Assembly: GCF_036417845.1 (NCBI RefSeq)
Contig: NC_089980.1
Location: forward strand, 44,266,501-44,330,500
From: Apteryx mantelli
Lineage: Eukaryota; Chordata; Aves; Apterygiformes; Apterygidae
Reading direction: 5' to 3'
Length of the DNA: 64,000 nt
Of this stretch, positions 13,354 to 47,595 are shown piece by piece. The notes beneath the pieces were generated by a model. The model ran no database searches and was not told the origin of the DNA. It saw only the letters and a program-made list of their open reading frames with translations. Made by a program: the position numbers and the translations under genes. How positions within the stretch are numbered: position 1 is the stretch's first letter; the number at the start of each line of letters is the position of its first letter.

Positions 13354-13380
13354 GCAAAAAGCCAGGCAAAAAGCCAGGCA
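13354..13380. repeat. Short tandem repeat, 12-bp unit
   Basis: The unit caaaaagccagg is present just over twice in tandem. No function is apparent. Confidence 0.7.
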
Positions 13381-17776: not shown

Positions 17777-17785
17777 TTTAATAAA
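17777..17785 (-). terminator. Candidate polyadenylation signal of the spectrin-repeat gene
   Basis: On the minus strand ATTAAA occupies 17777-17782, about 400 bases past the stop codon of the spectrin-repeat gene, a plausible 3' UTR length. The same A/T-rich stretch reads AATAAA on the plus strand at 17780-17785, so it could in principle serve a convergent plus-strand transcript too, although no such gene was found. An open minus frame continues through this region but looks like UTR, not coding sequence. Confidence 0.5.
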
Positions 17786-18178: not shown

Positions 18179-20818
18179 TCACTCCTTCTTCCCAAAGAAC
18201 TTCTTGAAGACGGATTTGTTCTTGGGACGAGGAGGGCCCTGGGTCTTCTCCCCCAGCACCTCCCGTGGGCTTCCCGGCCTGGCTACAAAGGAGTGGCAGC
18301 GTGTCCTGGGCATGGCTGGCGCTTGCTCCCCGATGTATAGTGTGATGGAGTAGCTGCTCCCGGCCTCCACGGGATCCTTGGGCACAGCTATGGGTGTGAT
18401 CTTCTGGTAGGTGGCTGCAAGAGAGGGAGCAGTGAGCAGGAAGGCCGAGGCATGAGCTGGGGTCTGCCAGCTCACCCAGGGACCTCTCTGAGCTGGGCAC
18501 GCGTGCAGGGCTCAGGGCGCTGGAGTCCGGGCTGCAAGGACGCAGGCACCAGGATGGCATCAGAGACAGCATTGCACCCTGTCCTGAGCACACCCTTCTT
18601 GCTCGCAGCGGTGGCTGTGGGGACAGGGGCATTGGTGCCACCTCCTGGCAGTGACAGTGAAACCAGGGTCTCGCCCAGGGAAGCCAGCTCACCACCTGTA
18701 ATACCTGTGGGGCTGAGCAGGGCTGCCTGACAGCATGCTTCAACCCCACACAAAGAGGCTGCACAGGAGATGGCTCCCAGTGGGATGGGTGCCAGTGACC
18801 GGCACGACTGGAGCAGATGCATGACTGACACTTGCGGGGAGCAGTCCAGGTGCAAGTGAAACACATCCTCCTGGCTCAGCATAAAGGCCACCCGGGCAGG
18901 GTGTCTCATGGGAACTCCAGAAAGCCAGAGCTTCCTCAGCCCAGATTTATCCCACGTGCTAACATAGCCTCAGCAGAAGTTGGGCCAGGACTGCCAGCAG
19001 GCAGCCCAAGCATGTAATGTCCCTTCTTCATGGACACAGAGCCCTGAGCCGTCAGCTTCCAGCTCCCCATGCTACCCCCTTCTCCAGCCTCCTCCTCCTT
19101 GCCAGGCTATGAGACCTCATGGGCTGCCCCTTACGCCAGGAGAGGAGGGGGGACGCCAGGTCAGGCAGCAGGCACATGGATTTACCATGCTGCATGAGGC
19201 AGCTGCTGCAGTACCAGGCAGCAGCCAGCGCACACCCCTCCAGCAGAACCCCCAGACATGATGCTCCTCCAGCCGCAGCTCCCACCCAGGGATGTGGGTC
19301 CCAGCTGGCCATCAGCTCATAGCTTGGGCTGGCCGATGGCTCCCAGGACTGGGCTGCAGGACGGCCTGTGTGCTGAGCAGACAAGTGATAGAGCAGAAGG
19401 GCACAGTGACCATTGGGCAAGGCTGCCCCATGCACGCATGCATATAGTCTCACACAGATGTACCTGAGGTGAACGAGTAGGACCTCCTCTTGTTGGCCAC
19501 CAGTCCGTAGTCATCTTCTGGGCAGCTCTTGTCCCATGACCCAGGGGACCCACTGGGTGACCACTGGTGCTCCCTGTGCCCAACTGCGTGGCCGGCAGCT
19601 CCACAAACATCCTCTGAAGCAGAACAGAGACATGTCAAGGAGGAGCTGAGACAAGTGAGGCAGGCGAACACATGCTCAGATGGCTCTAAAAGTAGGTTGC
19701 CTTGGCCCAAACCCAACATGTTCTGCAGATCCTGCCACTGCACTATGACACAAGGCAAGGTCACCATGGGACACCCTTATATCAGCCTCAGAAGGTGCTG
19801 GAAAACTTACACGGAGGCCTGGTTATCCTGGTAACTCCCAGGCAGTGAAGGGAGGTAACTTCTGTGAACCAGTCAAAAGACCTCCCTGTCCATCCCCCTT
19901 CCCCATTCCTGGGCAAAGGACCAAGGGACTACTGGCTCAGACACCACCAAATTCAAGACTGACCTATAACACTACAAATTTCCCTCTACCCCTCTCTGGG
20001 CTGGGGAGAAGAGTCAGGGAATAGCAGACTGTCCTGTTCGGCTCCTCTCCCCCCACTCCCCAGCACTGAATTCACTTGCTTACATCCTACCCACCCTGCC
20101 TGAGGATGCACTGGCACAGGCACAGGACGCCACAGTGGGCCTGCCTGTCTACCATGGACCCCCCCAGACAGGAGCAGAGCAACGGAAAGATCACCTAATA
20201 ACCCTGTATTCGTGTAGTGAGTACGGGAGACTCCATGGGCCCTGTGGCCAGGAGGCCCATGGGGCAGGAAAGTCACCTGCTGAGGATGCTGCCACATCTG
20301 CTGCGCCATCCTGGCTCCCAAAAGGCAGGTGCAGCCTGGCATTTGAGCAGGGTAGCACCACGATCTCTTGGCTCTTGGCAGTCATGGCCTGAGGGTGACC
20401 CTGAAGGTGGGAGCTTCCAGGCCCAGGGACCTTGCTGAAACTCAAAAATAGCAGAGATTTACCAAATCAGACTGGTCTGCAGAAGATCTGCTTGCTGCAG
20501 GCTGAGGAAGGCAGCTTGGACAGAGTTTTGGTCAAGAGGCTGAGGTGAGGAAGTAGCTAATGCCCACTTTCGGCACTCTGACCCCTCTGGGAGCAGAAGG
20601 GTGCACAGCAGCACCCTTATTACTATGGTGTTGACCACAAAATATGATAAGAGGAGACTGGCTTGCACCAGGAAGTGTGGGATATCATCATAACAAGGAG
20701 ACTTGGCTCTGGTCAAACTGAGACCTGGCTAGCCTGCTCCTGGCTACTCACCCCCCAGCAGAGCTGGTGCTCTCGACACTCTGTGCTGCTGCCTGGAAGT
20801 AATCCACTTCGGGGAAAC
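18179..20818 (-). other. C-terminal tail (exons 29-32)
   Basis: Exons 20818-20752, 20434-20277, 19613-19464 and 18414-18179 encode about 200 residues after the PH domain. They include [12 protein letters not shown], a segment [17 protein letters not shown] with possible phosphosites, and the terminal [13 protein letters not shown] before TGA at 18179-18181. Several beta-spectrins also end in a short basic KRFS-F-KKK-type tail, which supports kinship. Confidence 0.8.
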
Positions 20819-23800
20819 CTGGGGGAAAAGCAAACAACCCATTGGAGGGCAAGAGAGAAATGCTGCATCATTGGACAGTGCTGGAAGCAGCAGGACCACC
20901 CCACAGAGCCAGCCCGGGCTCTGGCTCCCTGCCCGACCGGCTGAACCATGGGGGTGCCCAGACTGCAGAGCTGGCTCCTCTGACCTCTAGTTCTAGGGCC
21001 TGCTGTTGCTCACACAAACCAACCTAGCATTTCATTACAGCGCCTGAGCCCCCTCGGTTAATGGTTATAGCAGAGGGAAGGCCTCAGTCTTGCAGATCTT
21101 CTTGCCTGGAAGGCAGGCAAGGGGCTTCCAGGCTCCACAAAAGAGACAGAGAAACAAGGGGCATGGGAAGACCAAGGCCCAATTATAATTTTCCTGACAC
21201 TGCTTTTATGCTGCTGAGACTCCACTGATATCAGTTGTGTTATTCCTGATTTATAACTGTGTATGTGGTGTGAAAACAAAGCCTCCAAATCCTGCCTGGC
21301 AAAGAACTGCAGTTCCCAAGGCAGGTTAGAAGACTGCATAAATCAGAGGCAGTGCTGTATTTCTTCTCTTCTGATCCCACATGCATCAGAGAGTTCAGAA
21401 CAGGCTACATGCACATAGTGAGCATGTGAAGATGACAGCAGAGTTGTACTCCCACCCCAGCTCTGCCTCTGCCCCTCACTCCTGCCGTGCAGCCCCTGCC
21501 AGCCCAGCCCATGCCCCATGTGCCCCACTGGGACCCTGCATGTCCCCCCTGCCCGTGACCGGAGGCTGCTCACCTGAGTTCTGCTGCAGCTTGGAGACCC
21601 ACTCATTCATGAGCAGCTGGGACGGGGCCCTCAGAAGATACTCAGAGCCATCCCGTAGCCTGAGGGAAGAACAGCAAGTCAGCAACAAGGAAAATGTGGG
21701 TTGCAGACATCACAGCCCCCACCAGCCTTGGAAAAAAGGGAAGCAGATGAGAAAGAAAGATATCATGATCCAGACACTGGGACCCCTCCATTCTCTGAGC
21801 TGGCCCTTGCTGGAGGTACCTACGTAACAGCAACGCACAGCCAGGTTTAACACACTTGCCTGAGCAGTGTAAAAGACCTTGGGGCTGCTTCTTCTCTAGG
21901 GAGTGCTGCAGCTGTAAAGTTTCCCACCCCCCTGGTGTCATGGGCTGGAGTTACTCACTGTAGCCTGAAGCAGTTGGTCTTTTTGGTGTACTCTGTGTCT
22001 GAGGTGCAGACCGCCCCAGAGAGGTTCAGGGGAAGGGCCACCACGGAGCTCTGCAGCACGGAGAACAGCAAAAGCAACAGTGGGGTTTGCTGGCTCCCCT
22101 TTCCAGAGCTGGCATAGACACAGGTGAGGGAGCCCCCTGGTAGCCCCCCGGCCGCACCGCTCCCCCCAGCCAGCCCCCTCCTGGCCCCAGAAGGGCCAGC
22201 TGGGCTCCCCAAGGCTGAAGGCATGGGAGAAGCAGGGAGAACGAATAAAGGACCCAAGTCTGCTTGGCTCCAGGCCTGGACGCTGCTGCCTTCCCCATCC
22301 TGCACCTGCTCCGTTCCTGCTGTGTCGCCCACCCCATGGTACCTTAAGGCTGTCCCTCCGGTCCTGGTAGAAGCACAGCGTCTGCCTCATCAGCACTGCA
22401 TGGAACAGGCTCCAGGCACGGCAGGTTGCCTATGGGACACAAACAGATGCCGGTGGTGAGGCAGGGCCCTGCCAGGTGAAGGTGCCTTTTTGCAGCAGAA
22501 GCCTATAATTATGCAGTGGTGGGAGCTGCCAGGGGACATCTGCCCCATCCCAGTCTGAGCAGTCCCATCGCCAGCCCGGCACCATCTCCCTGCAGTGGCA
22601 GGATGGACAGAGGCACTCAGGAGCAGCACGCCCAGGCGCCCCCCTTAGGGTTGTCCACACATGCCAGGGCAGCCCTGACTCTCCCAAAACCCTTCTTCTA
22701 GCCACTGCTAATCCCACATCCCATGCTGGTTGGAAGCATCAGCCAGGGAGTTTTGGCACAACTGTCCCCCTTTTGGGGCCATTCAGGCCAACACCTCCTT
22801 TTCACTACCCCCCCCTCCAGCCTCAGATTTACTGCTCAAGGTTTGGGAAAAGAGAAGCAGTCTGCTGCCAGTCAAAACACTCCTCAGACCCCTGTAAGCT
22901 GTGATCCCGGTGAGGCCAGCAACTGTGTAATGTTGGTGCAAGTAGCATCTCTGGTTTCAGTCCCTCCTTAAAACTTGAAAAGCCTTTGGGCCCCTGGGAG
23001 ACCAGGCAAAGGTGCTGCATGCACCCTTCCAGCAGTCATGTCTCCCCCGCAATGGGTGAGCAATGATGTCCCCAGCAGCTCTGCTGTGACATGGTACTGC
23101 TGCTCAGGAGGGCTGGGCAGGAGCAGAGACTATGAGAAGCTCCCCACTGAGGGCCAGTATCTTGAAGGGCTTTGAGCTTTGTGCTGAGGATACTGACCTC
23201 TGTTGCCTTCCCTGGAAAGCGCTCCTGTGTTTGGGAATGCAACAGTGACAGCCTTGTTGGTGCAATGACAAGTGACATTGGCAGGGGTGTAAGCTAGGGA
23301 TGCCCATATCAGGTCGGATGAAGTCCTTTCCAGGTGACATTTCTGCAATTCTGTGTGTGCTAGAGATAACGTATCTCTGCCCCCATGGCCTGGTGGCAGC
23401 CAGCTCCCAGGAGCTGTTGGCTTGGCTGAATTGTGCTTTTTTTTTTTTTTGGGGGGGGGGGGAAACACTGTTGTTTTGCCTTTGCAGGCTGGAGTCTGGC
23501 TGGCCAGCCAAGGGGAAAGTTCATTTTAAGTCAGTCTCCTCATTGGACAGCTGATTACCTGGGGTACAGGCCTGGCTGCCATGGCCCCTGTGCCCAGCTG
23601 CTCCCAGGAGGCTGCCCACCGGCAGCCCCCACACTCACACGTCACATATGTCCCTGCGCCCCAGGGCGTAAAGGAGCCACGCAGCCGTGATCCTACCTTT
23701 CTACCTCCTGTCTGCAGCACGTGCTTCCTCTCCAGTGTCCCCTCCATCATCTGAAACTCCATTTTACCGGAGGGAGCCTGCAAGGAGACAGAAGATGAGC

Positions 23801-26800
23801 AAAGCAGCCCTGGGCTAATGGTAACAGCTCAGCCCTGGGAACCGCAGAGTCTTTCTGACCTGTTGGTAACCTCAGCCCTGCCACCGTTGCCGGAGGTGTC
23901 CCTCGGCCTCAAAAGCAGTGTGTGCAATGGGGGGTACCTGCCTCCCAAACCCAAGTGCAGGCACACACAGCCCTTGTGCTGCTCAGAGGATGAGCTCGTG
24001 ACTCCCTCTTGCGTGGGACCGTGCAGCAGCCCGTGGTCACGGCACTGCTGCCCATGGTGGAGCGGGTGCTGGCAGTGTGGAGAAGCCACCAAGGGCCAGC
24101 GGCGCTATCTGAGGGCCATCCCAGCTATTACAGCCGATTCAGGGGCCGGGCTGAGGCTCCCCAAGCACCTCCCAGCTTGTTGCATGCGTCCCAGGGCACT
24201 GTGGCTCAGCGGGATCTGTGCCAGGCAGCAGAAATCCCGCTGCCTGGCCCTGCCATTCACATGGGGTTTGGGCAGCTATCTGACCCCCAGCAAGAGCGTG
24301 TCCAGCCCATGGCTCTGACCTTGCTGCCCTCTCGCTCCTCATCCTGATGTCGATCCCGTGTGCTGGGGCTCTCCGCCCATGCTGCGGACATGGACCGCCC
24401 CGTGCCATGGGGCGCCTCCGTGCAGGGAAGGGCTGCCCCACACCTGCTCGGGCTGCCACTGCCCTTGTGCCTGTCACTGGGGCCCTTTTCTCCAGCTGGG
24501 CTGTGGAGCAGCTGGGCAGAGGTGGGAAGGGTGAACTTGGCCACCAGCATGTTATTAGTTGCCGAGAGGATCAGGGGCCCGCCGGCAATGTCAGGGCTCT
24601 GTAGGCTGCCTGTCCCGCTGACCGGCATGGGTCGGGCGCTGCTCTCTGCCCGTGGGCTCGGCACCGTCTGCTCTTTTGCTTGGTCCCAGATGGCCTGCAG
24701 CTCCTCCTCCTCCTCCTCAAACAGCCTGTGGGCCGGGTGGCAGATCTCCGCCGGGCCCATGGTCTCAGGGCTGCGCTGCCGGCAGCCCAGCTCACAGGCG
24801 AACATGGAGAGCTGGGGGGTGGCTCGGGGGCCCCGGTTGGTGGCAGGAGGGGAGTCCGGGCCCCCACCGGACAGTCCCGCTAGGACTTCCTCGCCGGACT
24901 TCCCGCTGCCGGCGGGCCGCTCCGGCCGGGCAATGCCAGTGGCAGCACCCGCCCTGGTGGCCAGGGCGGTGGGAGAGGACCTGAGCTCAACGCAAGCAGC
25001 TTCCCGCAGCCTGGCCTTGCAGCCGGCTGCTCTCTCAGCTCCCGCAGTGCCGGAGCTGCCATCCCGGCCCAGCCTGGCTGCCAGCTCGTCCCACTCCTGG
25101 CCGACCTGCTTGTGCAGCACGCTGATGCGGGACAGTCGGTTCAGCCGGAAGTCCAGCAAATCTTCATCGGCGCTGCCGGGGCTCTTCCGCTCCTCCATGG
25201 TGCGGCAGGCCACCTCCAAGCCCCGTGCTTTCTGCCGGCTGTAGCTAGGGTTGAAGCTCACCTCTTCGAACCATGTTCCTCGCTCGCCCTTGGGGGGCTT
25301 CCCCAGGCCTTTGCCTGGCCCCTGGGGACTGTGTCCATGCACATCCTCCTTCTGCTGTCCAGGCCCGCTTGCTCCTGCAGCCTCCAACCGCTTTGCCCCC
25401 CTGCCCTGCCTCTTCTCCTTCCCCTCTGCCTCCTCCTGCCGTGCCACCACCGCGGTGCCTCGGAGGCAGCCCAGGACGGCCAAGTCCTTGGGCAGCTCCA
25501 GGCTGAGGACAGACCCGAGCGAGAGGTGGGGGCAGGTGTTTTTTGACCCGGCAGTGGGCTGCACGGCACTGGGCCCCCCGCCATGGTGGGGGAGGCTGGG
25601 TTTGGGGTCCCCGGGGGCAGCCCCGCACTCTGCGTCAATGTCCCGCACCAGCGGGTTCTTCACGTAGAGCAGCAGCTCCTCGAGCTGGGGGCCGGGCGTC
25701 CCCGGTGCCGCCTTCCTCCGGCCGCACTTCAAAGGCCACGTGTTGCTGGGGCCATGCCTCTCCTCGGGCAGGGGCTGCAGGGAGCTGGGGCCCATGATGC
25801 CCTGCAGCGTCAGCAGCCGCGCATGCTCAGCCTTCACCTTCTCCTTCCTCTGCAGGCTGTTGAAGATGGAGCTGGGGCCGGCCTTGGGCAGGGTGTGGGA
25901 GGCCACAGTGGCCACGGCGCTTGATGCCAGAGGGCGGCACACTGCGGCAGGTGCTTGCTTTGCTGGCTGCACCACGGCAGAGGTTTTCCAGGCCCCTTCT
26001 CCATAGCACTCCTCCATATGCAAAGAGGCGCAGGCCTGGGGACACAGCGAAGGGGAGAGGGGTGAGCTCCTTGCCAGGGGAGCCCCAGCTGTAGGCACCG
26101 CAACACAGGCCAGCCCTCGCTCACCCCACGCTGAGAGCCCTCTCCCCACACGGCAGCTGGGGGAGTGAGGAGTCGGGGGGCCAGACAGCCCCTGTCACGC
26201 TCCAAAACCGCTCGCCCTCGGCACTGGCACTGCTTCCAGCGCTGGGAGCTGCACAGCCTCGTCCTCAGCACCCAAGGGCTGCTCCCACCTCAGCACATGG
26301 TGGGAAGAGGCAGGAAGGGGGCACCCTGCTCATGTTACAGAGCCCCCCAGGTGTGTACCACTGCCCTGTCGTAAGGGGGCTGCCTACACTACAGAGCTCT
26401 CCTCCCTCACTTCTGCCCTCTAAGGGGCTACTTCTTGGGGTCTACAGAGATAGCGGTCACTGCGGTATGCTTGCAGCCACCTGTATGTGCCACCAGGCAG
26501 CAGCGCTGGGTGAATGCAAGGGCAGAGCATGTCCCTTTCCATTCTCTACACTCTCCTTTCCCATGAACATTGTCTCTGGACCTTCCCACTGCAGTCTCAG
26601 CCTCTCTTCTGGGTTTCTGTGGCTGCAAGGATGAAAGCAAATAACTTTGCCTGGCAGAGCTGGAACTGCATTTCCCTGTATACCCTAGGCTGCATGGTGC
26701 CTGTCACCCCAGGCCCTTCTGGTGGCTCTTCAGTCCTTCACCCTGCTGCAAGGCCCTCTGGCCTCTCTGGCACCTTCCCCACTACCCCTTCTTGGCAGCT

Positions 26801-29800
26801 CTGGCCTCTTCCCTTGGTCACCCAGCCTGGCTGTATGCAGGGAGGGCCCAGCACTGTTGGCATCAGGAGTTCCTCGCAAACAGCCCTTTGCGCAGGGTTC
26901 AGAGCAACAAGTGGATCCTGCATGGCTGCAGAGCCCCGGCAAAACGCCAGGCTCCCAGCGCTGGGGTTGCAAGCCTCGCACATACATCCCAGAGCAAGCT
27001 CCCCTCCCAACACACGCACACTCACATGCAAATGGCTGGCTCTGTGGCCCATTCACCCTTGCCCCCTTCACTCAGCTGCACAAGGGACTGCTCCTGCCTT
27101 CCTGCAACTAGAACGAGACCCTCCCACTGCACCTCCCACAGCCACCAAAACCACTTACCCCCAGGGCCAAACTGTGGCCAGACCCCTCCAGCCGAGACCG
27201 CTCTTTGCATGCCCCAGCTCCCACACTCTGGACCCCAGGGCACCAGCAGTATTTCCCTCTCCGCAAGGTGGCCCATTGCCATGTCTGCACCCACTGGCCC
27301 TGCCAGGGGGAAAGCTGACCCCAGGTGGCCTGCCAGGGCAGGGAATAGCACTGCAGAGAGGGCAAGGCAGGATGGCCAGGTGGGTTAGTAGCAGGCAGGT
27401 TCATGCCATGCAGCCGCTTTGCTCCCCATGCAGCCTCTCCGGGACGTTACCTCTTCCATGGACTGGTGAGACGGCTTTCTCTTTCGCTTTAAACTACCCC
27501 AAGTATTTCCTAAAAGCCCCTGGCAATGCTTCCAAAAGGTTTTACAGCTTGAGGGTTTAGTGGCAGGGAGCTGAGCATGGGGAGAGAGAGACACAAAGAG
27601 AGTTGAGGGAAGAGCGAGGGTGGCCAGCTACATAGAGGAGAGAGCAGGCAAAGAAGGTGCTACAAGCCAGTGCTTAGCCCTCAGGAATCACCCGACATCC
27701 AACAGAGCCAAAGGTCCCTCTCATCTTTCTGCTATGGCCTGGACAGCTCGCTTGGAAACGGCCTAGATGGATCCCACCCATGGGAGCAATCTGGGAGCCT
27801 ACATGCACTACACAGCTGCAGCCACCCTGTTTGCCTGCCACGTGAGGACGTCTGCATTGGGACGCAGCTCCCCATGGCAGCTCCAGAGAGCCACGGCAGT
27901 GGCCAGGCCCAAGGTGGGCACGGGGAGCTTCCGCGTGGCCCTGTTGACGCCACGGCCGCTGCACAGCCTCACGTACCATCTGTGGAGCCTCCTCCCCGGG
28001 CCGTTCTCCGCTCAACACCAGCTGTGGCTGCTTCTTCTCTCCCTTCTTGCTGATGCTCAGGATCAAGTTGACTGTCCCCCCCAGGCTGCCAGCCCCCCGT
28101 GGCGGCAGCAACATCATGGAGGTCTCGGAGGGATCCCAGATGAGACCCTCCTCCTCAGGGGGTCCCGCACCATGGGGCGCCGAGCTGCTGGGCTCCGGTC
28201 CCAACAGGGCATCCAAGAGGGGTGACACTGCAGGGGAGATGGCTGTTTCCTCCAGCACCTGCGGCTGCAGCTCTAATTCTTGCATAGATTCGGGCAGAGA
28301 GGAGGGTGCAAACCCTTTCAGGCTAAGGATGCTCTCTGCATGGGGCTGAATGCATAGGACTTGCTGCTCCTGGGAAGCAAGACAAGAGAAGGAATGTGGA
28401 GACTGGAGAAGAGGACTGCTCCAGGGTCCCCAAGCACTCTTCGAGGCTCACAGCCCCTGCTCATGCTCCCAGAGAGGCTCGGGGAGGAAAACAGTGGCAC
28501 AGAGATTGCCCAGGCTCCCCCTTGGAGGCAGGAAGCCCAGGCCAGCAGCTCAGGTGCTTTCTCTGGGCAGTCTTCCCTGCCTGCCCTGTCTGAACCTGAG
28601 AGTATTGGGGGTGTCACCCCCAAGGTGTGACATGTCCCTCCCCTACTTCCATGTCACCTACTCCATTAGATCACAGACAGATCCTCCCTCTTCCCTCATG
28701 GTCGTGATGCAGCCAGGTACTCACCTGGCCGGTGGAGGACGCACCCAAGGGACTTTCATGGTTCTTTCTGTCTTCCTGCTTGCTCCCAGGGTCCCACTGG
28801 TGTTTCTGCGCTCGCCAACGTACCAGCACCCAGCCCAGCATGCTCTGCAGCTCCTCCATGCGCTCCTTTATCTGAGGGGAGGAGAGATGCCAGGCAGTCC
28901 GCAAGGACACCCTGCTCAGACCCTCAGCCTGGGCTCAGGGACACAGACCCTACCAAGACAACTCCTACCAGGAATGGTTCAGGAGGTGTTGGGACCAGGA
29001 CTCAGTCAGTTGCACCCAGTACCAGTTGAAACACATTTCCAACCTTCTCCCAGCCGCAGGGTGACCCTGCCACCTGAGCCCTCAGCAGATATAGGGGAAG
29101 TGTGACTGGCTCTGGCCAGCTTGTTGGGGCTTTGTGTCCACAGCTTTCTCTCTCCTCCAGGGACCAGTCCCAGAGGGTTTCAGTGAGGTGCTGAGAAATG
29201 GCTCCCTGTCACTGTAAGGGGCCCAGGCTCCCTTCTACTTACCGTCTCGCTCAGATAGTGCTCCTCAGACACCAACGTATGCCCCACTGCCGCCAGTTCC
29301 TCAAACTCCTTGAACTTGCCTTCAATCTTCCTCTCCAGTTCCTCACACTGAGTGTCCAAAAGGCCATGGCTGCCTGGGCTTTCTGAGAAGATCTGAGCCC
29401 GTGTGTCCTCTGTCCAGGAGCTGAGAGCACAGGAAGGCCAGGTGTAATAATAATCCAGCTCATTCTCAGCCCTACAGGATCCCAGGCAAGCAATTCCCAA
29501 CCAGCCTCAGGCTGAGCCCTTGTCTTCCAGGGGGACGTGGCTCCCCACTAGTACCAAGCACTCCTAAAGCTGCCCTTCAGCTGCGGCGGCTGTGCAGGAT
29601 CCCAGGCCCTCCCTGCCATTCCCTCCTGCGGCTGAGCTGAGAACAGAGCTGCGAGTGCGCAAGGGGTGTTGAGATGTGTTACCTTTACGGACATGTTGTC
29701 TGTATGAACCCTGATACTTTTAATAAGGACTTGGCTTTTACTAGAAGTGGCCCCCGCTTTCCAGGCTGAGCTTTCCAAGCTGCACGGTGCCCTTGGTAAA

Positions 29801-35800: not shown

Positions 35801-38800
35801 GACTTCGGTCCTCAGCAGCCTCCATGCAGGGGATGAGAGCTACATCCTCTCCACCCAGCCCTCGCTCTGGACATGCAGTAACTCAGCATGAGGCTGTGCA
35901 GTTCAGGGCTGACCTTGGCCTGCATGCTCAGTACCTTGGTGTGGATGGCCCCAAGAAGGGCATCTGCTTGCTGGAGGAAGGCAGCTACCTCCAAGGCCAG
36001 CTGCAGAGCCTCATGATGCTCCTTCAGGGTCCCCTGGAGCCGCAGCCACCTGCATGGGTAAATGGGAAGAGGTCAAGGCAGCCTGTGCCACAACATTGGC
36101 CGTTTCTGCAGAAAGCTGTTCAGAGGTGAGGAGAGGCAGGACAGGAGGCAGGAGATTTACGATGTCCTTCAGCTCCCTGTGCCTGGCTCTCCCCCTGCTC
36201 AGCTTGTATACCCTCCGCTCACATTTTGTTGAGGTGTTTGCGCTGGGCAGAGATGCTCCTGCTCTCACTTTTGCCTTGTTTCTCCAGCTTCTGGGCCAGG
36301 CTGTTCAACTCCTCATGTAGACTCTGGAACTGCTGCTCCTCCTGGCCCAAGCAGAGAGACAGAAACACCATCCCTCATCAGGGCCCGTCCTCCATCTGTC
36401 CCTCCTGCCACCCTCTCAGAGACCTCGCACTTGGGCCATGCCCCAGCATTGGGGTCCCAGGGCTGGTGGGGTTCAGGGTTCCTGGCATTATAGACTTTGG
36501 ATAGGTTTTGGAGAGCATGTTGGTGGTTTTGGTGACCCAGTTCATCACAGTGGTTGGACAGGGCTGGGTATTACTGGGCCACCCACTGCCCATATACTGT
36601 AAGATCTCACTCCTGGGCAGGAGTGGGGAGATGGAGTGGGACCTGGGTGGGGAGACCAAGCTCTTCCCCCAGGAGCTGCCCCCTCCAGAAGCATCCCAAG
36701 AGCCTCTTACCTGTTTCAAGTTGAGGATGCGGCGGGTGAGCTGGATCTTGTCCAGGTTTTCCTGCAGGAGGGCCTCCAGAGAGGGTTTCTCCTCCTGGAA
36801 CAGGGGAAGGGTGTGAGGAGGTGGCAAGAGCACAGGAGGACAGACACGGTGTCCCCCCTCTCCAGCCTAAGCCAAGCAGGGTGGCCAGGGCAATTATGGA
36901 GAGTAATTAAACCCGTCACTCCCACATTTCATTCCTGACTGACAGTCAAGAGCTTATGGGTAAGGATTAAAGGGCAGGCTAGCATGGGTGACACTGTTGT
37001 GGGTGTTTACTACAGGCCACCTGATCAGGATGAGGAAGTCGATGAGGCCTTCTACAGACAGCTGGAAGTAGCCTCACGATCCCAGGCCCTGGTTCTCATG
37101 GGGGACTTCAACCACCCCGATATCTGCTGGAAAGACAACACAGCTAGGCACAAACAGTCCCAGAGCTTCCTGCAGAGCATTGGTGACAACTTCTTGACAC
37201 AGGTGGTGGAGGAGCCAACAAGGAGAGGTGTGCTGCTGGACCTCGTACTAACAAACAAAGAAGGACTGGTGGAAGATGTGAAGGTTGGGAGCAGCCTTGG
37301 CTGCAGTGACCATGAGATGGTGGAGTTCAGGGTCCTGCGAGGAGGCAGCAGGGCACCAAGTAGGATCGCAACCCTGGACTTCAGGAGAGCAAACTTTGGC
37401 CTCTTCAGGGACCTACTTGGAGGAATCCCATGGGTTAGGGCCCTAGAAGGAAGGGGGGTTCAAGAGAGCTGGTTAATATTCAAACATCACCTCCTCCAGG
37501 CTCAAGAGCGGTGCATCCCTATGAGTAGGAAGTCAAGCAAAGGAGGTAGGAGACCTGCATGGATGAGCAAGGAGCTCCTGGCAAAACTCAACCAGAAGAA
37601 GGAAGTATACAGAAAGTGGAAAGGGGGACAGGCCACTTGGGAGGAATATAGGAACGTTGTCAGAGTATGCAGGGATGTGACGAGGAAGGCTAAGGCCCAT
37701 TTGGAATTAAATCTGGCTAGAGATGTCAAGGACAACAAGAAGGGCTTTTTCAAATACATCAGCAGCAAGAGGAAGACTAGGGAAAATGTGGGCCCTTTGC
37801 TGAATGGGGTGGGTGCCCTGGTGACGAAGGATGCAGAGAAGGCAGAGTTACTGAATGCCGCCTCTGCTTCAGTCTTTACTGCTCAGGCCAGCCCTCAGGA
37901 ACCCCAGACCCTGGAGGCAAGAGAGGAAGTCTGGAGAAAGGAAGACTTTCCCTTGGTGGAGGAGGATCGGGTTAGAGATCATTTAAGCAAACTTGATACC
38001 CACAAATCCATGGGCGCTGATGGGATGCACCCACGAGTGCTGAGGGAGCTGGCGGATGTCATTGCTAAGCCACTCTCCATCATCTTTGAAAGGTCATGGA
38101 GGACAGGAGAGGTGCCTGAGGACTGGAAGAAAGCCAATGTCACCCCAGTCTTCAAAAAGGGCAAGAAGGAGGACCCAGGGAACCACAGGCCAGTCAGCCT
38201 CACCTCCATCCCTGGAAAGGTGATGGAGCAGCTCATCCTGGAGGCCATCTCCAAGCATGTGGAGGAAAAGAAGGTGATCAGGAGTAGTCAGCATGGCTTC
38301 ACCAAGGGGAAATCATGCCTAACTAATCTGATAGCCTTCTATGATGGAATGACTGGCTGGGTAGATGAGGGGAGAGCAGTGGATGTTGTCTACCTTGACT
38401 TCAGCAAGGTTTTCGACACTGTCTCCCATAACATCCTCATAGGGAAGCTCAGGAAGTGTGGGCTAGATGAGTGGACAGTGAGGTGGATTGAGAACTGGCT
38501 GAATGGCAGAGCTCAGAGAGTTGTGATCAGTGGCACAGAGTCTAGTTGGAGGCCTGTAGCTAGCGGTGTCCCCCAGGGGCCAGTACTGGGTCCAGTCTTG
38601 TTCAACTTCTTCATCAATGACCTGGATGAAGGGACAGAGTGCACCCTCAGCAAGTTTGCTGACGATACCAAACTGGGAGGAGTGGCTGATACACCAGAGG
38701 GCTGTGCTGCCATTCAGAGAGACCTGGACAGGCTGGAGAGGTGGGTGGAGAGGAACCTCATGAAGTTCAACAAAGGGAAGTGCAGGGTCCTGCACCTGGG

Positions 38801-41800
38801 GAGGAATAACCCCAGTCACCAGTACAGGTTGGGGGCTGACCTGCTGGAAAGCAGCTCTGCGGAGAAGGACCTGGGAGTGCTGGTGGACATCAAGTTAAGC
38901 ATGAGGCAGCAATGTGCCCTTGTGGCCAAGAAGGCCAATGGTATCCTGGGGTGCATCAGGAAGAGTGTTGCCAGCAGGTCGAGGGAGGTGATTCTCCCCC
39001 TCTGCTCAGCTCTGCTGAGGCCACATCTGGAGTACTGCGTCCAGTTCTGGGCTCCCCAGTACAAGAGGGATGTGGCACTACCGGAGCAAGTCCAGCGAAG
39101 GGCTACAAAGATGATTAGGGGACTGGAGCATCTCTCTTATGAGGAAAGGCTGAGAGAGCTGGGCCTGTTTAGCCTAGAGAAGAGAAGGCTGAGAGGAGAT
39201 CTTATCAATGTGTACAAGTATGTGAAGGGAGGGTGTCGAGAGGATGGGACCAGACTCTTTTCAGTGGTGCCCAGCGACAGGACGCGAGGCAACGGGCACA
39301 GACTGAAACACAGACGCTTCCATCTGAACATGAGGAAAAACTTTTTCACTGTGAGGGTGACAGAGCACTGGAACAGGTTGCCCAGAGAGGTGGTGGAGTC
39401 TCCTTCTCTGGAGATATTCAAAACGCGCCTGGATGCAATCCTGTGCAATGTGCTCTAGGTGACCCTGCTTGAGCAGGAGGGTTGGACTAGATGATCTCCA
39501 GAGGTCCCTTCCAACCTCAGTGATTCTGTGATTCTGTGATTCTGTGACAGGATGATCACAGGTGCCACAAGTCCCTTCCTTATGCCTCTGTGTCTCCTTC
39601 TACCCCAGGGATAATACACTGAGCAGTGTCACCGCCTGCAAGAGAGCAGGGACCTGGATCTCGTAGAGGATCAGATATGCACCACATCTACAAGCAGGAG
39701 CATGAAGCTACAAGGTTTAAACACATTACTTTCTGCTGGAGCCCAAGATCCCTCTTCCATGGCCTTTCCCAAGGAACTGACGCCTGCTCCTGGGCTATGC
39801 AGCACAGGGCCTCGGGGACATGGCAGGTGGCCAGGCTGCTTACAGTACACACAGGGAGCAGCAGAAGGCCCTGTCCATCCCGGCCAACCCTGACCCAGCT
39901 GGGCTCTCGGCACACTGTACCTTCTGCCTGATCCACGCTTCCAGCCGCTCGGCCTTCCTGGTGAAGTCCTGCAGGCTCCGCAGCCCGCCCAGGGCTCTGC
40001 TCTGGCTGGCGGCCATCTGCCGGAGGAGCTGCCACTGCTCCCGCAGGGCCAGCAGCTGCCGCCGCACCGTCTCGGCGGTGGGGCTCGGCCAGCCCATCAG
40101 CTGCTCACCCATCTGTGGGGGCAAGGGACCCACTCAGGGGCAGGCACTGCCCCGGGGGCCCTGGCCCGCCAGGGAGGCACGGGAAGAGCACAGAGGCACC
40201 GACACTGCCTAGTTATGGCAGAGGAGAGCTCGGATGGGGAAGGTCCCTGCGGCGAGGGGGTCTGCGCTGCAGCCTGGCCTCACCTGGTTGAGCTTTATCA
40301 GCGTGTTCTCAAAATCCTTCATGTCCCTCTGCAGGGTCTGAGCCACCTGCTCCCAGTCCTGCATGTTGCAGCTGTCTTTCAGGTCCCGCAGCTTGCCTCG
40401 CACCCAGCCCTCCGCCTGCCACGCGAGGAAAAGCCATGAGCTGGGCGGTCTCTGGCTCTGCAAGAGCCCCGAGGCTGCGGCAGTGGGGATGGGAAGGTGA
40501 GTGGCATCTCTTTTTTCCACCTGCTCCAGCCCGGTGCAGGCTGACAGGAGAAGCCGCAGCAGGCCGAGCGGGGAGGCTCTGCACAAGACGTCCCCATGCA
40601 AGACATCTGCTCTCCTTGCCCATGCAAACGCGTGCATGCGCACGCGCGCCCCCTCCGGCATGCGGATGCAGCCCCTCTTCGCCATCCCTATTCCCATGCT
40701 GCTGGCGAGGGAAAGGGACCCGGGGGGGAGGAAGGGGGGGGGGATGTGTGTGTGCATGTGTGGAGGAAGCTGGGCCCTGGTGTGAGCTGACCCCCTCTCC
40801 CTGGGGCTGACAGCCAGGGAGAGGCAGCCAAAAATGATCTCATGCCACAACAATGGCTTCGCTCGAGGCCGAGAGTTCAGCCCTCCCCGCAGCGCACCCC
40901 ACCCCGCAGCTCACATGAAAGGCTCCCGCGCGCAGGCAGCCCCCTCGCCCCTCCGCCACAGCCGGGCTGCGGGCGCAGTCCGGCGGCCAGGGACCCCCAG
41001 CGGGGGCTCACCTGCAGCATCTCCCGGTTGAACTGGGCTATCAAGGGGCTCAGGTTGAGAAGGTTGGCCGGTCCCGCGCTGCTTCGCCCACCGCTTTTCA
41101 GTGCGGCGGGCTCCTTGCTCTTGGGGCTTTCTCTCTGAGGAGCCGCTGCGGGGCCTCCTGTGAGCTGGGGTGGGCAGAGGGGGGAAAAGTCAGCGTGCCT
41201 CCCTGAGGAGCCCTCCAAGAGCCTCTCCGGAGAGAGCTTGTCAGTGGCGTTTTGGAAGCCCAAATAAATTATGTCAGCCTCCCTCATCCCCGATCCTGTT
41301 GCTTCACTGACATATTTGGAGTGTTCTCACAGAGTCCTGAGGCACAATTTCCCTTTGCAGAAGCTGCGCTGGCTGCACTCACAGCCCTAGCAGGGGGGTT
41401 ACCAGACTGTTCTTCATTCCCAGGTCACTCCTAGCTGACAGGCTGGCATCTAACGCCTGGGCTTGTCCCAGCACCCTTGGCTGAGGCAGACACCGTGTTT
41501 GCTGCCCTTCTAGCCTGAAGCTGTGCATTTCTGCAAGGAGCATATGCATCTGTGGCATTCGCTCTGCATTGCCCTGGCAGGGCCCCCAGGTCACCCCAGG
41601 GCTCCCCATGGAGCCCCAAAGAGGATGAAGCAACCTGGGAGGGTTGTGCTGCTGCTCCCAAAGGCAAATGGAGCAGAGCTGGCAGTCAGCTCCCCAGCCA
41701 TTGCAGCCACTGCCGCATGAAAGACCCTGCCAGAGCTGCGGCCAGGGGCAGGGCCAGAGCCGGGGCATGGGGCTGGGTGCTGCGGGGCAGAGCTGGATCA

Positions 41801-44800
41801 TGGGGCCACGCTTGGAGAGGTTTCTCTAGGAGTAGTAAGGGTGTCACAGAGCTGTCTCAGAATGCTATTTGCTTTTCTCTTTGTGAACAATCCTCCTAAA
41901 ACATAGTCCCCAGTGAGACGGGGAGCTCCTGAAGAGGTCCCTGGCTCTGTAGCTGTCCTGCTTGCCCCTGCCCCGTCCCCTGCTGCATGCTGCCGGGCAC
42001 TGGGGACAGCCTTTCCCAGGACACACGTCCCGTCCCTCTGAGCGATGAGCCAAGTGATGAGGCAGGAGAGCTGCAGAAACAAAAGGGTGATTCTCCTAGC
42101 TGTCTCCCACCGTTGCCTACACGGTGCCAGGGCAGCCGTCGTTCCCGATGAGCTCAGTCCATGGCTTCTTCAGGGGCATCTGGAGACTCTTATTCTCAGC
42201 GAGTGGTGGTGGGGGGAGAGGCATGGCATTTCCCCTGGGCTTTGGTCTTGCAGGCAGCCGGCACTGACGAAATGCTCTGTTAGGGCTCCAGCCCCATCAG
42301 GGGCCACAGTGAAGGTCAGCCAGAGAAAGAGCTGGCCTTGTGCCAAGCTCAGCCCTGGACCCAGCTGCAGAAATCCCTGAGGAAGGCGCAGCCTCAGAAG
42401 CGGTTGCTGCCCAGCATAGCTGAAGAGCCCAGGGCCCCACTGCTGCCCAGGGACAGAGCTGCCCCTGGGGCCTGGTCTTGTCCAAAGCACCACTTTCAAA
42501 GCAGGGGGTCACATTAACCCAGAGCTGAGCTCGAGTTTCACGCAAGGTCAAGCCAGGACCCAGCCAGGTGGCTGTATGCTCTCCCCCAGGCCTCAGCAGT
42601 CATACTTTCTGCATCCCAGGTTAAGTCAGGCCAAGCGCTTGACCACATGATGGTCAATGCTAAGCTAAGGTAAACAGGACACCGAGCACTGAAACATTTT
42701 GCTGGAGAAACCTCTCCCAAGTCAAACCCCAAGCCCAGCCAAGCAGGGAAGTGCAGGACTCTGCTTGCTGCCTCCTCTGATCAGGCAGCAACTGCTCCCT
42801 TGATCTGCACTGGAAAACAGTCCACCGCCAAGGGCAGGCTCTGCTGGTGGGCTCAGCTGGAGGGCTTGGCTGTGATCTGCCCTGCTGGGGGTCCCAGCTG
42901 TACCCAGCAGCCTGCCAGGGTGGTATCTCTGGGGAGTCTGTGGAGCAGCAGGTTTCAGGCAACTGTTTCAGGCTCTCTAACCACTCTGGCATGTGTCACC
43001 CCGCTGATGACATGGCAGTCACTTTTCAAAGCCTTTCTGCCTAACCACAAGAACTAGAGAAATTCTTTCCCCTGCCCCCCCCTTGTTTTTTTGTAGAAAC
43101 ACAGATTCTCAGACCCTCCTATCACTTCAGGATCTTCAGTCTCCAGTCTTCAGATCTCCAGCCATCCTTGTCCCCAGGCACACCACCAGCCCATAGCGGG
43201 TATGTCTCACTGCTCTGACTGCACACTACAGCTTTGGCAGCTGACTTGCAGCCCTCCTTTGCTCAGCCCCCAAACCAGCCAGACTGCACTCCTCAGTAAG
43301 GCCTGTCTAGACCATGAGAGCTGGGGCACATACCACGTAGAAGGGGGAGCCTCGGTCCACCAGCGAGCAGAAACCACCAGCATGGGGGCTCCTGGCCTCC
43401 TGCTTCTCTTCCTCCACATCCAATTCCTTTCTGAGAAAGACCCAGAGGTGGGGAGATGCAGCCCCATGAGTCTTTCAGCATTTGACCCTCTGAGTGGCCA
43501 AGGAGTCCTAACATGTCACAGCAGCCTCCTCCTGCCCTGGGACAGAGAAGGCTGTTGATGATACCCAGACACAGCGTGGTGAGGCTCTTTCCCAGCCCTC
43601 TGCATTCATCCAGGCCAGGCCCCCCCCAGGCAGTGTCCACTAGCTCCCTCCATGCCTTCAGCAAGTGGCAAGGGCTTCTAAGGTGGCTTGCTCAGTGCCT
43701 TCCACATGTTAGCTTCCCCATACTTTTTCCTCTTGAACTGTCTCCAAAAGCAACAGAAACACATTCTGTGGCCTCCTCCAGCCCCTGGCAGTGTTAGCAT
43801 GACTTTCTCGCTGTGGGCAGGCATAGACCCCATTACCTCCTCATGACAGCGACGGCAAAGGGGTGCAGGGCACAGGAAAAGGTTGACACCATTGGCATGA
43901 ACTGCCTCAGCCACCAATACTTGACCGCAGCCTGGCTGGGAGGTAAGAGTTAAGAGGGTGGCTGACTCACAGAGAAGGGCTCCCCGGGGACACAGGCTGC
44001 GGGCGTGAGCAGGAGAGGCAGGAGGAAGGAAGTCCAGGAGCCATGGCCAGGCACAGAGAGGAGGTCCAGGATGAACTCTACATTACCTTATTGCTAATGG
44101 AGCCCAACCCCAGCACAAGAGATGCGTGGGATTGCTTGGATCATACACAGAGGCAGTCACCCTTATCCTCTACTTTTGGACATTTTCTTATACCATCAGA
44201 TATAGCAGGCCAGTTTAGGGACCTCCTTCCACCCCTTCCTCAGTGCCACTTTGCTTTCTCCATAATAGCCGTCCAAGCATTCACAATGAGACATGAGGTG
44301 CTGGGCTCTGTGTGCTGCCCTAACACCCACTCCCAAATCTCCCCTGAGGCCACAGCAAAGGAGGCAGCGAATCAGCTAGAACGAGAGTTGGCCCAGCACT
44401 GCTCGGACCACTCTGAACAAAGCAGGACTCGCTCCCTGAGCAGAAAGCAACTTCCTAGTGCCACAGCAGGACTCCAGGAGTTCCATAACTCAAGAGCTCC
44501 TGCCACCAGAAGGGCTCAGATCTCCATGAACAGCTCATGATCCTACAGCCTCCTGCCCCCACAGGCTCTACTTTACAGGAGAAGGAAAGTGTACTACGGG
44601 CCAGTGGGAAGCCTTGCCCGCCGTCACCTACAAATCTGTCCCTGGTTCTGGCACAGTCTGACATCAGGCACCCCTTGCTTAAGACACACTCTGGCCCAGA
44701 CCCCATTTACCCTCTTGCAAATGATTTCAGCAGGGCTCTCCGTAGCAGATGAGCACTACCAGGGGGCTGTCGAGCCTGGCTGGCCGGCAGAGCCTGCGCT

Positions 44801-47595
44801 GCTGGCTGCAGCCAGCCGACTGCAGCAGGCCACGCGACAGCATCCCATCCTGAGCAGGAAGAGCGGACAGGGAGCAAGACTGAGTCACAGAGCAGCCAAC
44901 GCAGCGAGAGCTTAGCGCTTCTGGCAGGGCCATGCCAGCAGCTGCGGGAAGCACGGCTCCCTTGCTAAGGAGACAGCACCTCCCTGCCCCGACTGCAGTG
45001 CCTAGAGGTTTGAATGCCTGTTTAGGGAACAGCAGGGAGCTAAAGACAAAAAGGTTGCTGGGCATGAGATCCTAGGAAGCCCTCTTCTCAGTGGCAGTGT
45101 CCCATGCTTGCTGCAGCTTGCAGGGCCCTTTCCCAGCCAGCACTCAGCCATGGGAAATAAGCCCGCAGGTGACACGGGAGCTTTATTTAAAGGCTGTATC
45201 TTGCGATCCATCAACTGCAGGAAAAGAGTGCTGTCAGCACAAGGATGACTTCATCCTTCCTGCGGAGCTGCTTCACTGGCACTGCCCCCACACACCTCCC
45301 CAAGCCCATCCAGCCAGAGGTGGGTCCTCGTTCGTGCAAAGCAACAAACTCTCCGAGGCCTCACACTGCCTTGGGGACTGAAGGCTGCGGATGAGGAACT
45401 GTGCCTCCCACTGCTGCTGCCCATGAAAATCAGCAAGGTCTAACCCAACAGCTCATTAGCCTCACACACATGTGCATCCACATACATGAACACACACACA
45501 CACAAGTGCGTTCTTGGCTCATGGCTAGGGATCCGATTAAAGACTTCTTCCTTGGGGCCTGTGAGGTAATGTGTTAACCGGTCACCAGCAGGAACCCAGA
45601 CTTCACAGACATTTAACAAGTGAAGTAAATGTAGTGGCCTCAGCTTCATTCTCTGAGGATGCTTTCTTCCCTTATTAAAAGCAAGCCAAATGTGGCACAT
45701 AAGCTCACTGCATTCCCTTAGAAAAGTAGGTGCCAATGACTTCATACGAGCAAGATGAGGAGGGCCAGACCCTTCCAGGCTGCTGCTGGGCTGTGCTAGT
45801 CCTGGCAGAGGTCCTGGATGCCAGGGAGGTGGGGCAGGCGTGAGGGGTAGGGGCACAGCTCGGGCAGTCGGGGCCAGGCTGGCAGAGGCCATGGGGCAGG
45901 AGCAGACTGGGGGGCTGGGGGCTGGGCTAGCAGGGGCTGTGTGGCAGGCTTGGGTAAGCCCTAGCAAGCTGCTCCGCCTGTGCTTCAGCCCAGCTCTTGT
46001 GCCTGGACTAGGGGAAAGCACTCCCCTCCTCTCCTCTCCCCTGGTTGCCACCCTACATAGCACGCTGTTTCTCCCACCGTGCCCTGGCTCTCTCACTCTT
46101 CCTCCCAAAGCTCCATCTTGTAGTCTTCCCCTCCAGTCCAGCTCCACACACCCCCCCCCCCAATGCTGCACAGACAGGAAGGCTGATCCTGGCAACCTCC
46201 AGAGTCCCAAAAAACACCACCATTACGAGCACATGTCCCCACTTTATATGAAAGAGGGGAGCCCTCAAGCAGATCCCCTTTGGGTTGCGCAGGCTGAAGC
46301 TACGCAGCGAGGACCTGCCTGTGTGCTGAAGCAATCAGCAGTTCTTGTGAGGCTGTGCCTAGCCTTTATTGGCAATGAAGAAGAAGGTTTTGGCAGTCAG
46401 CTGCACTGCTCTCCCTAGCACTATCCCACTGTGAAACCAGCTGCTGCAGGTCAGGGTTAAATCACAAGGAGTTCCTGTCTGTTCTTTCCAGCTATGAGGA
46501 GGAGGTCTCTGAGTTGCCTTCCTCCCTGTCCCAGCTACTCAGGGGTCTCCTGAGCTCCAGCTCTGACAGATGAGGACGTCTGTGTCTCCTAGCGCTGAAA
46601 CTGGGAGGGCGAGATGCCAGGACTCCTGGGTTCTGCTCCCAGCCAGGGCAGGGGACTGACAGGCAGGAGCCTCGTCCTGGCTCTGCCTCACTGTGTGGCC
46701 CTTCGTGAGTCACTTCCCTTCTCTGAGCCTCGGTTTCCCCACCGGTAAAAGGAAGAGCACGTTCCCAGTTCCCCTAACACAAATAGATCACAGGCATCCA
46801 AAGAGCAGAGCCCTACACAACTCAGGCTCTGGGGCAGAGCTTTTCTGTTTCATTTTAGTCTCAAGGAAAGCTCATTTCCAACTTTCCCCTCAAAGACCTC
46901 TTACCCTCCAGCCCCACGGTGCTGGGAAGAGAGGGCGTGGGAGGCAGAGAGGAAGCAAGCTATCCCAGGAGCCCTGTAGCAAATGCTCCCTGGAGACAGC
47001 GCTTTTCGGGGAGGGCAGAAAGAAGGTAGCAGAAATCCCCCTGCCTGGGCACAGCCTCCCCTAAGACCTACACATCCCCTTGCAGACAGGGATGGGGACT
47101 GCAGAGCAGAGGGGCCAGCCCTGAAGGGATGGGTAGAGCAGGGTGCAGGGTATGGGAAGTCCTTACCTTGAACTGAGCTTTCCCTGGTCTACTGTTGTTG
47201 TTGTTGTGGTTCCTCTCACCGCCAGTCTGGGCAGGGTCCCCGAGTCCCCCTGCATCACCTGGGACAGCTTCCCCATGCCAGTTGGACAGCGTGATCTTCT
47301 TAATGGAGCGGGCAAGAGAGTTGCGGTTAAGCCGGTCCTCATCGGTGACTCCTTCTTCCACAGGGCTGGTGCTGTGGGGCTGGCTGTCGGGGGGAGCGGG
47401 GTTGGCCCGGGCCCGGGCCAGGTAGAGGGAGATGCGCTCGTTGAGGTTGTGTCGAAGGCCGTGGTGGTTATCCAGAGCGGAGGCGAGAGCGATGCCAGGG
47501 CGAGCATCCCCAGAGAAGTCGGCGGCACACTTGGGCAGGGAGAGCTTGGTGCTTATGGTGAAGGGCTGGACCTTCCTCGCCGTGCTGCCAGACAT
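18179..47595 (-). CDS. CH-less beta-spectrin-like protein, 32 coding exons, 2,162 residues
   Basis: Exons, 5' to 3': 47595-47167, 41164-41012, 40415-40284, 40112-39921, 36794-36711, 36341-36223, 36049-35914, 35644-35558, 35405-35290, 34666-34516, 34259-34153, 33850-33760, 33568-33419, 33342-33205, 32812-32556, 32412-32286, 31986-31855, 31555-31400, 30730-30510, 29420-29243, 28871-28725, 28369-27977, 27570-27451, 26035-24320, 23777-23697, 22429-22343, 22050-21959, 21659-21574, 20818-20752, 20434-20277, 19613-19464, 18414-18179. Every junction has AG and GT and the phases agree; the total is 6,489 bases. Layout: novel N-terminus (1-194), about eight spectrin-type repeats (about 195-1100), two unassigned segments (1102-1272), disordered region (1273-1844), beta-spectrin-type PH domain (about 1850-1957), tail ending in lysine-rich [11 protein letters not shown] and tail indicate beta-spectrin kinship; the CH domains that bind actin are absent. 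A cytoskeletal or membrane-skeletal scaffold role is inferred. The gene was not recognised by name. Confidence 0.85.
21574..23777 (-). other. PH domain, beta-spectrin type (exons 25-28)
   Basis: Four exons (23777-23697, 22429-22343, 22050-21959, 21659-21574) encode a pleckstrin-homology domain. It begins [11 protein letters not shown], continues with [20 protein letters not shown], the [20 protein letters not shown] strand pair, and closes with the C-terminal helix [10 protein letters not shown] carrying the invariant Trp. The opening MEG-L-RKH, the TKK-x-x-CFRL segment and DGSEYL closely follow beta-spectrin PH domains, which bind inositol phospholipids at membranes. Confidence 0.9.
23437..23462. 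repeat. Poly-T then poly-G tract
   Basis: About 14 T followed directly by about 12 G in intron 25, between two PH-domain exons. Likely length-variable and hard to sequence accurately. Confidence 0.85.
24320..26035 (-). other. Exon 24: large exon, probably disordered, 572 residues
   Basis: One 1,716-base exon, far larger than the others, opens after an acceptor at 26036 and ends at a GTCAGA donor. The product is rich in Gly, Pro, Ser, Ala and charged residues and has little predicted order. There are short islands of possible constraint such as [40 protein letters not shown] and a Glu-rich helix with [18 protein letters not shown]. It joins the repeat region to the PH domain, where ordinary beta-spectrins have a much shorter linker. 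Confidence 0.75.
27451..28369 (-). other. Exons 22-23: unassigned segments after the rod
   Basis: Exon 22 (28369-27977, 131 residues) starts with a helical stretch, passes through acidic and Pro-rich sequence and then shows a compact motif, [17 protein letters not shown]. Exon 23 (27570-27451, 40 residues, both ends phase 0) encodes [20 protein letters not shown] followed by RKPSHQS. Both look constrained, with hydrophobic and basic patterning, and are not spectrin repeats. I do not recognise a family. A frame also continues past the exon 22 donor (GTACGT), but in-phase joining favours splicing there. Confidence 0.65.
36984..39458 (+). CDS. CR1 ORF2 fragment: endonuclease C-terminal part plus reverse transcriptase
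   Basis: An unbroken 824-codon frame. The endonuclease portion keeps [17 protein letters not shown] and the SDHEMVEF motif (Asp-His pair), but its N-terminal catalytic part is lost. The frame is open just upstream of this Met (VRIKGQAS), so the Met is arbitrary. The reverse transcriptase shows NHRPVSLTS, the palm Asp in [26 protein letters not shown] and the catalytic FADD box in [10 protein letters not shown], followed by the C-terminal region of CR1 ([22 protein letters not shown]). Two positions differ from what I recall as CR1 consensus: DFSKAFD reads DFSKVFD, and GVPQGS reads GVPQGP. Without the full endonuclease it is unlikely to mobilise on its own. The open frame suggests fairly recent insertion. 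Confidence 0.9.
39521..39546 (+). repeat. CR1 3'-terminal octamer repeat
   Basis: About three tandem copies of TGATTCTG end the CR1 element. This terminal microsatellite is a CR1 hallmark and marks the 3' boundary of the insertion. Confidence 0.9.
40722..40763. repeat. G-rich tract followed by TG repeat
   Basis: Runs of seven to ten G separated by short spacers, then a short TG repeat, in intron 2. G-quadruplex formation is possible but untested. Confidence 0.6.
45490..45504. repeat. CA dinucleotide repeat
   Basis: About seven CA units in a wider CA-rich stretch (about 45462-45504) in intron 1. Confidence 0.75.
46365..46370 (-). terminator. First canonical AATAAA downstream of MYMX
   Basis: Reading left from the MYMX stop, no AATAAA or ATTAAA was seen on the minus strand until this hexamer, about 1.7 kb away, inside intron 1 of the spectrin-repeat gene. 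It could end a MYMX transcript. Support is positional only. Confidence 0.3.
47167..47595 (-). other. Exon 1: N-terminal segment of the spectrin-repeat gene
   Basis: The exon encodes 143 residues from the first ATG after the CpG island to a clean donor (CAAG followed by GTAAGG). The segment is basic and Ser/Thr-rich near the start, has a central stretch containing [17 protein letters not shown] that could form an amphipathic helix, then [17 protein letters not shown], and ends with a short Asn run (HNNNN) coded by a CAA/AAC triplet repeat. No CH domain or other family is recognised. Upstream minus-strand sequence to the CAPN11 end was read for CH-domain exons and none was seen. Confidence 0.8.

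Follow-up and report, generated by a model that had tools for sequence, protein, structure and literature searches.

The Locus

The window analyzed here is a stretch of 64,000 nucleotides from Apteryx mantelli (C3:44266501-44330500), and the genome searches covered this one genome of 1.50 Gb. Its minus strand carries a real multi-exon gene of beta-spectrin type without CH domains, which reads from an ATG at 47595 toward a stop at 18179. The evidence supports the gene order CAPN11-MYMX-window gene-SLC29A1, all on the minus strand, with gene names given by position or resemblance.

A GC-rich stretch that starts off from exon 1 in the upstream direction contains, some 0.5 kb away, an intact 62-codon frame at 48270-48082 (minus strand), which is MYMX-like in its resemblance to the myomixer microprotein. 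Nucleoside-transporter exons at C3:44242282-44247584 are SLC29A1 by position; the location between MYMX and SLC29A1 that an earlier note on this DNA had given is supported for this genome. About 37 kb (window 1-18000 plus C3:44247600-44266500) separate the window gene from the transporter. On the other side, exons at about 59179-63644 (minus strand) have the look of a C-terminal calpain half, presumably of CAPN11 by position, and the catalytic exons of a calpain follow past the window's right end (C3:44.331-44.333 Mb), which places them upstream of the window gene by about 17 kb. An intron of the window gene harbors, antisense to it, an 839-codon LINE reverse-transcriptase frame (36939-39458, plus strand), presumably of CR1 type.

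Gene Model

Between 47595 and 20752, 26 exons are in phase at every junction and give 5,690 bases or 1,896 codons with no stop, with AG at 25/25 acceptors and GT at 26/26 donors; read in the two other frames the same exons contain 55 and 49 stops. GC at codon positions 1, 2 and 3 is 0.66, 0.48 and 0.77, compared with 0.58 for the remainder of the span, and GC3 is at least 0.62 in 25 of the 26 exons. The exons were predicted by a small exon finder, supplied with a codon table and splice weights, and then selected by hand. The earlier note had described a real gene of 32 exons joined in one frame of 2,162 codons; the gene and its open frame are borne out, but not the full exon set, since the model reached 26 exons and 1,896 codons plus an unlinked last exon. 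This probable last exon (18414-18179) requires entering phase 1, whereas exon 20818-20752 exits in phase 2, so that at least one small exon must be missing or misread between them. The join of exon 1 to exon 2 across a 6-kb intron is made on phase alone, and exons 35558-35644, 34516-34666 and 31855-32049 are weakly supported. The gene would presumably make one single transcript. In the following list lengths and phases are set beside those of SPTBN5 (beta-V), the relative discussed below.

47167-47595, minus: exon 1 with the ATG (47595), encodes a unique N-terminus of 143 codons without a Pfam match, phase-only join
41012-41164, minus: exon 2, end of the N-terminus and probable start of the first spectrin helix, AG/GT, phase 0-0
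40284-40415, minus: spectrin repeat exon (segment A), 132 bases versus 156 in SPTBN5
39921-40112, minus: spectrin repeat exon, 192 bases as in SPTBN5
36711-36794, minus: spectrin repeat exon, 84 bases versus 96 in SPTBN5
36223-36341, minus: spectrin repeat exon, 119 bases and phase 0-2, both as in SPTBN5
35914-36049, minus: spectrin repeat exon, 136 bases versus 115 in SPTBN5, phase 2-0 in both
35558-35644, minus: exon weakly supported, by splice signals and codon score only
35290-35405, minus: exon, repeat-like
34516-34666, minus: doubtful exon, GC3 0.48
33419-33568, minus: spectrin repeat exon (segment B)
33205-33342, minus: spectrin repeat exon, 138 bases and phase 0-0, both as in SPTBN5
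32556-32812, minus: spectrin repeat exon, 257 bases and phase 0-2, both as in SPTBN5 (257 bases kept; other passes of the exon finder put 237 or 302)
32286-32412, minus: spectrin repeat exon
31855-32049, minus: exon, moderate support
31400-31555, minus: spectrin repeat exon (segment C)
30510-30730, minus: penultimate full repeat exon, 221 bases versus 218 in SPTBN5, phase 0-2 in both
29243-29420, minus: last full repeat exon, 178 bases versus 190 in SPTBN5, phase 2-0 in both
28725-28871, minus: exon ending the last repeat; the terminal partial repeat of SPTBN5 is absent here
27977-28369, minus: low-order linker exon
24320-26035, minus: 572-residue insert exon, without a Pfam family or another match in its own genome
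23697-23777, minus: PH exon 1
22343-22429, minus: PH exon 2, same length as in SPTBN5 (87 bases), carries the R-x-W motif
21959-22050, minus: PH exon 3, same length as in SPTBN5 (92 bases)
21574-21659, minus: PH exon 4, 86 bases and phase 2-1, both as in SPTBN5
20752-20818, minus: exon 3' of PH
18179-18414, minus: probable last exon, basic end, stop at 18179, phase not fitting the preceding exon

Among the exon-finder candidates judged doubtful and removed by hand were 46905-46921, 43334-43430, 45504-45558, 38394-38462, 31081-31110, 29865-29915, 20568-20586, 20277-20388 and, in another frame, 40915-41164.

Domains of the Predicted Protein

When the protein model, less 36 residues trimmed by hand from two exon starts, was compared with Pfam, Spectrin was found in 7 stretches (E 4.8e-36) and PH_9 at E 4.5e-15, in agreement with the spectrin repeats and the beta-spectrin-type PH domain that had been read from the letters; no family was found for the N-terminal exon, the insert or the last exon. 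The absence of CH domains, also claimed before, was confirmed in three ways: there was none in the Pfam scan of the window protein, none near the window among the 104 CH matches listed for the genome, and no trace of one in the window plus 16 kb of flanking DNA with one canonical CH query in tblastn. The solved structures closest to the PH domain are all PH domains of beta-spectrins, namely 1btn (2.4e-16), beta-III 1wjm (1.7e-13) and fly 1dro (3.5e-09), and the repeats match solved repeats of beta- and alpha-spectrins weakly (best E 2.7e-09). Where the R/K-x-W of the beta1-beta2 loop aligns, the PH domain carries R-A-W; in the available part of PMC3344901, R-x-W serves a non-canonical phosphoinositide site in the PH domains of beta-spectrin, Tiam1 and ArhGAP9.

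For the N-terminus encoded by exon 1, no relative was found in its own genome (best non-self match E 0.26). The 400 bases upstream of it have a GC content of 0.87 and a CpG o/e of 0.83, and its GC3 is 0.77 across the first 112 codons and 0.61 across the remainder. Exon 2 is taken as the counterpart of SPTBN5 exon C4:48005593-48005778, both leaving in phase 0.

The insert before the PH domain has exactly the 572 codons that had been proposed (exon 24320-26035), and the chance expectation of its 645-codon open frame in the window is about 0.002. No relative of it was found elsewhere in its own genome and no stray copies in one scan of prokaryote genomes. That the insert is disordered, as the earlier note stated, is borne out in part: disorder is likely by one propensity scale (0.22 for the insert, 0.11 for the repeats and 0.07 for PH) but not by charge and hydropathy, since a mean hydropathy of 0.433 at a net charge of 0.01 puts the insert on the folded side of the usual dividing line. 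A match to the tail at C21:6757352 (E 0.086) was rejected as a homologue because the frames there look intergenic.

The terminal partial repeat of beta-spectrins pairs with the alpha chain. The window gene lacks it, a point that the earlier note had overlooked: after the last full repeat SPTBN5 continues into the partial repeat, whereas the window gene turns to linker exons. Searched against the window and its flanks, the partial repeat of SPTBN5 gave as sole match with E < 0.2 another repeat of the window gene (1.7e-4), and canonical partial repeats gave weak low-complexity matches alone (best 0.089). Many SPTBN5 repeats are also missing, the 7 Pfam stretches falling short of the approximately 30 repeats of the beta-V class. 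A diverged counterpart of the ankyrin-binding repeat SR15 may be present, as a candidate by position.

Relationship to SPTBN5

CH, repeat and PH signals occur together at five loci of the genome (C3:29.3, C4:19.1, C35:1.15, C37:0.71 and C4:47.97-48.06 Mb), and the window gene is none of these. The gene at C4:47.967-48.063 Mb has small exons, at least 19 repeat pieces among those listed, a diverged PH domain and CH exons at C4:48.059-48.063 Mb. We named it SPTBN5 because of these features together with a calpain 0.5 Mb off, human CAPN3 likewise being a neighbor of SPTBN5.

In four aligned segments 10/10 comparable introns of the window gene match those of SPTBN5 in phase, nine in the same column and the tenth one column off beside a gap, and 7 of 14 paired exons are equal in length (192, 119, 138, 257, 87, 92 and 86 bases); the SPTBN5 segments were chosen by hand, and some of its exon boundaries were set by eye in knowledge of the match that was expected. 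Identities are 61/214, 33/131, 45/181 and, for PH, 43/112. The introns of the PH domain (column/phase) are at 67/0, 96/0 and 128/2 in both genes versus 70/2, 128/2 and 143/0 in SPTBN1 and SPTB, which is coincidence at 3/3 places with SPTBN5 and at 1/3 with the other two. The introns of SPTB in the last repeats also differ from those of the window gene, and one intron within the last repeat is common to the C35, C37 and C4:19.1 genes as well. An unrooted tree of nine PH sequences joined the window gene and SPTBN5 with a support of 98/99; PH identity is 42/103 with SPTBN5 and 33.0-38.5 percent with the genome's four canonical PH domains, two of them incomplete.

With the exons spliced and incomplete models as comparison genes, SPTBN5 tops all three repeat segments. 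Segment A gave 85.5 bits with SPTBN5 and 42.7 with the next gene in blastp (phmmer 76.3 versus 41.9), and segment C 50.1 with SPTBN5 and 48.9 with C35, a near tie (phmmer 45.6 versus 31.5). For segment B the best blastp match was not its positional counterpart (38.5) but segment A of SPTBN5 (40.0), with the next gene at 36.6 (phmmer 29.5 versus 16.4). In the unspliced genome search with repeats 4-8 the SPTBN4-like gene at C35 came first (1.1e-5) and SPTBN5 was absent among the 19 matches listed, whereas with repeats 1-2 SPTBN5 (7.6e-6) was narrowly ahead of SPTBN1 (1.5e-5); the unspliced search disadvantages SPTBN5 because its exons are short.

At the level of sequence comparison these results establish the kinship of the window gene with SPTBN5. 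The statement that the gene fits none of SPTB and SPTBN1-5 stands insofar as it is separate from the five loci, but it can be placed beside SPTBN5 by introns, PH tree and spliced alignments.

Comparison with Known Spectrins

Spectrins are defined by the cross-linking of actin via CH domains and by pairing with alpha-spectrin. SPTBN5 shares with the window gene the features of exons, introns and spliced alignment described above and a calpain nearby; it differs by its CH exons, its many repeats and its terminal partial repeat, and the window gene in turn by its unique N-terminus and the 572-residue insert. SPTB, SPTBN1, SPTBN2 and SPTBN4 have in common with it spectrin repeats and a C-terminal PH domain. 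Drosophila beta-heavy spectrin (karst) is a full-length protein. Beta-V is said to be its mammalian orthologue in the title of a paper of 2000 by Stabach and Morrow.

According to the accessible text of PMC6546920, human beta-spectrins number five, the canonical ones having CH domains and 17 repeats and the SPTBN5 protein 30 repeats, reports of beta-V come mainly from photoreceptors and hair cells, and the Sigma-6 isoform of beta-IV (SPTBN4) is a beta-spectrin product without CH domain. Sigma-6 is CH-less like the window gene, yet it is an isoform of a complete gene, whereas the window gene is a separate gene without the domain. The count of five fits an absence of the window gene from human but is no proof of it; the earlier note had conjectured that the gene may be kept in birds and reptiles and have disappeared from mammals. 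Among the matches listed in a literature search there was no report of a separate gene with this make-up. PMC10416458 does not mention spectrin, SPTB, SLC29A1 or CAPN11, and PMC11641596, in its available part, mentions CAPN11 and SLC29A1 once each and spectrin not at all. In automatic annotation databases the gene may already bear a placeholder name.

Proposed Origin and Function

We propose, with a probability of about 0.7, that the window gene arose as a paralogue of SPTBN5, has diverged from it and has been reduced to part of the rod, a linker with insert and the PH domain, and that its product is a membrane-held scaffold. It probably originated when a block of calpain and spectrin genes was duplicated, presumably long ago. 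Compared with SPTBN5 it lacks the 5' region that holds the tandem CH domains and most repeats. An unrelated N-terminus precedes about 7-8 repeats, whose homologues lie toward the C-terminal end of the beta-V rod. The place of the terminal partial repeat is taken by about 700 residues, of which the linker contributes 131 and the insert 572 in one exon each, and the PH domain and the basic end come after the insert.

It is rather unlikely that separate transcripts have been combined in the model, with exon 1 or the large insert coming from another gene or isoform. Such a fusion could explain why no counterpart of exon 1, the linker or the insert was found in SPTBN5 or the rest of the genome, and it would suit the phase-only join across the 6-kb intron and an upstream ATG in exon 2's own open frame; however, the insert both begins and ends in phase 0, and at least the repeat and PH exons belong together because SPTBN5 has the same order and the same introns. 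The 1,896 codons without stop, the intact splice dinucleotides and the high GC3 in 25/26 exons make a dying pseudogene or gene remnant improbable, even though CH domains, most repeats and the partial repeat are lost, the repeats have diverged and the join to the last exon does not close in phase. Least credible is that the ancestor was one of the canonical beta-spectrins (SPTBN1-, SPTBN2- or SPTBN4-like) and that fast change made the gene resemble SPTBN5: the near tie of segment C and the position of C35 as best non-self unspliced match for repeats 4-8 would agree with it, but segment A is strongly on the side of SPTBN5, the PH tree joins the two at 98/99, and the PH introns, unlike those of SPTBN1/SPTB at 2/3 places, equal those of SPTBN5 at 3/3.

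For the diverged SPTBN5 paralogue, the PH domain with its R-x-W and the basic end would hold the protein on phosphoinositide membranes, and the short rod and linker could be a docking arm for partners. Neither CH-based actin binding nor the closing of alpha-beta tetramers would be expected and, since CH domains and partial repeat are missing, an ordinary lattice strut is unlikely. Most likely the protein forms a rod that is attached to the membrane but stands apart from the actin-spectrin lattice, and it may act as a peripheral membrane scaffold or as a competitor for partners of beta-V. A retained gene minus both defining functions, with part of the rod and PH, would reveal what the remainder of a beta-spectrin does alone, and it would provide a second relative for work on the poorly known beta-V.

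More tentatively, and with chances somewhat short of even, the gene could be a sixth vertebrate beta-spectrin that the early whole-genome duplications produced from SPTBN5 and left beside CAPN11, and that survives in this lineage as a membrane scaffold deprived of actin binding and tetramer formation but is missing from human. It would then bring a sixth member to a family of five in human.

Calpains Near Beta-Spectrin Genes

A calpain lies within 0.5 Mb at 3/6 beta-spectrin loci. Besides the one upstream of the window gene, calpains are found at C4:48.544-48.549 Mb, where SPTBN5 lies on the other strand, and at C37:0.37 Mb, with the spectrin at 0.71 Mb; calpains also occur at C3:22.8-25.0 Mb, with SPTBN1 at C3:29.3 Mb, and there is none near the beta-spectrin loci C35 and C4:19.1 Mb. 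For the two families compared, this proximity fits copies of one calpain-spectrin block, against which it counts that the links differ in orientation between loci. Outside the window, seven calpain copies, some on each strand and with match scores that are the same or almost so, lie at C3:22.84-23.14 Mb, perhaps a recent local amplification.
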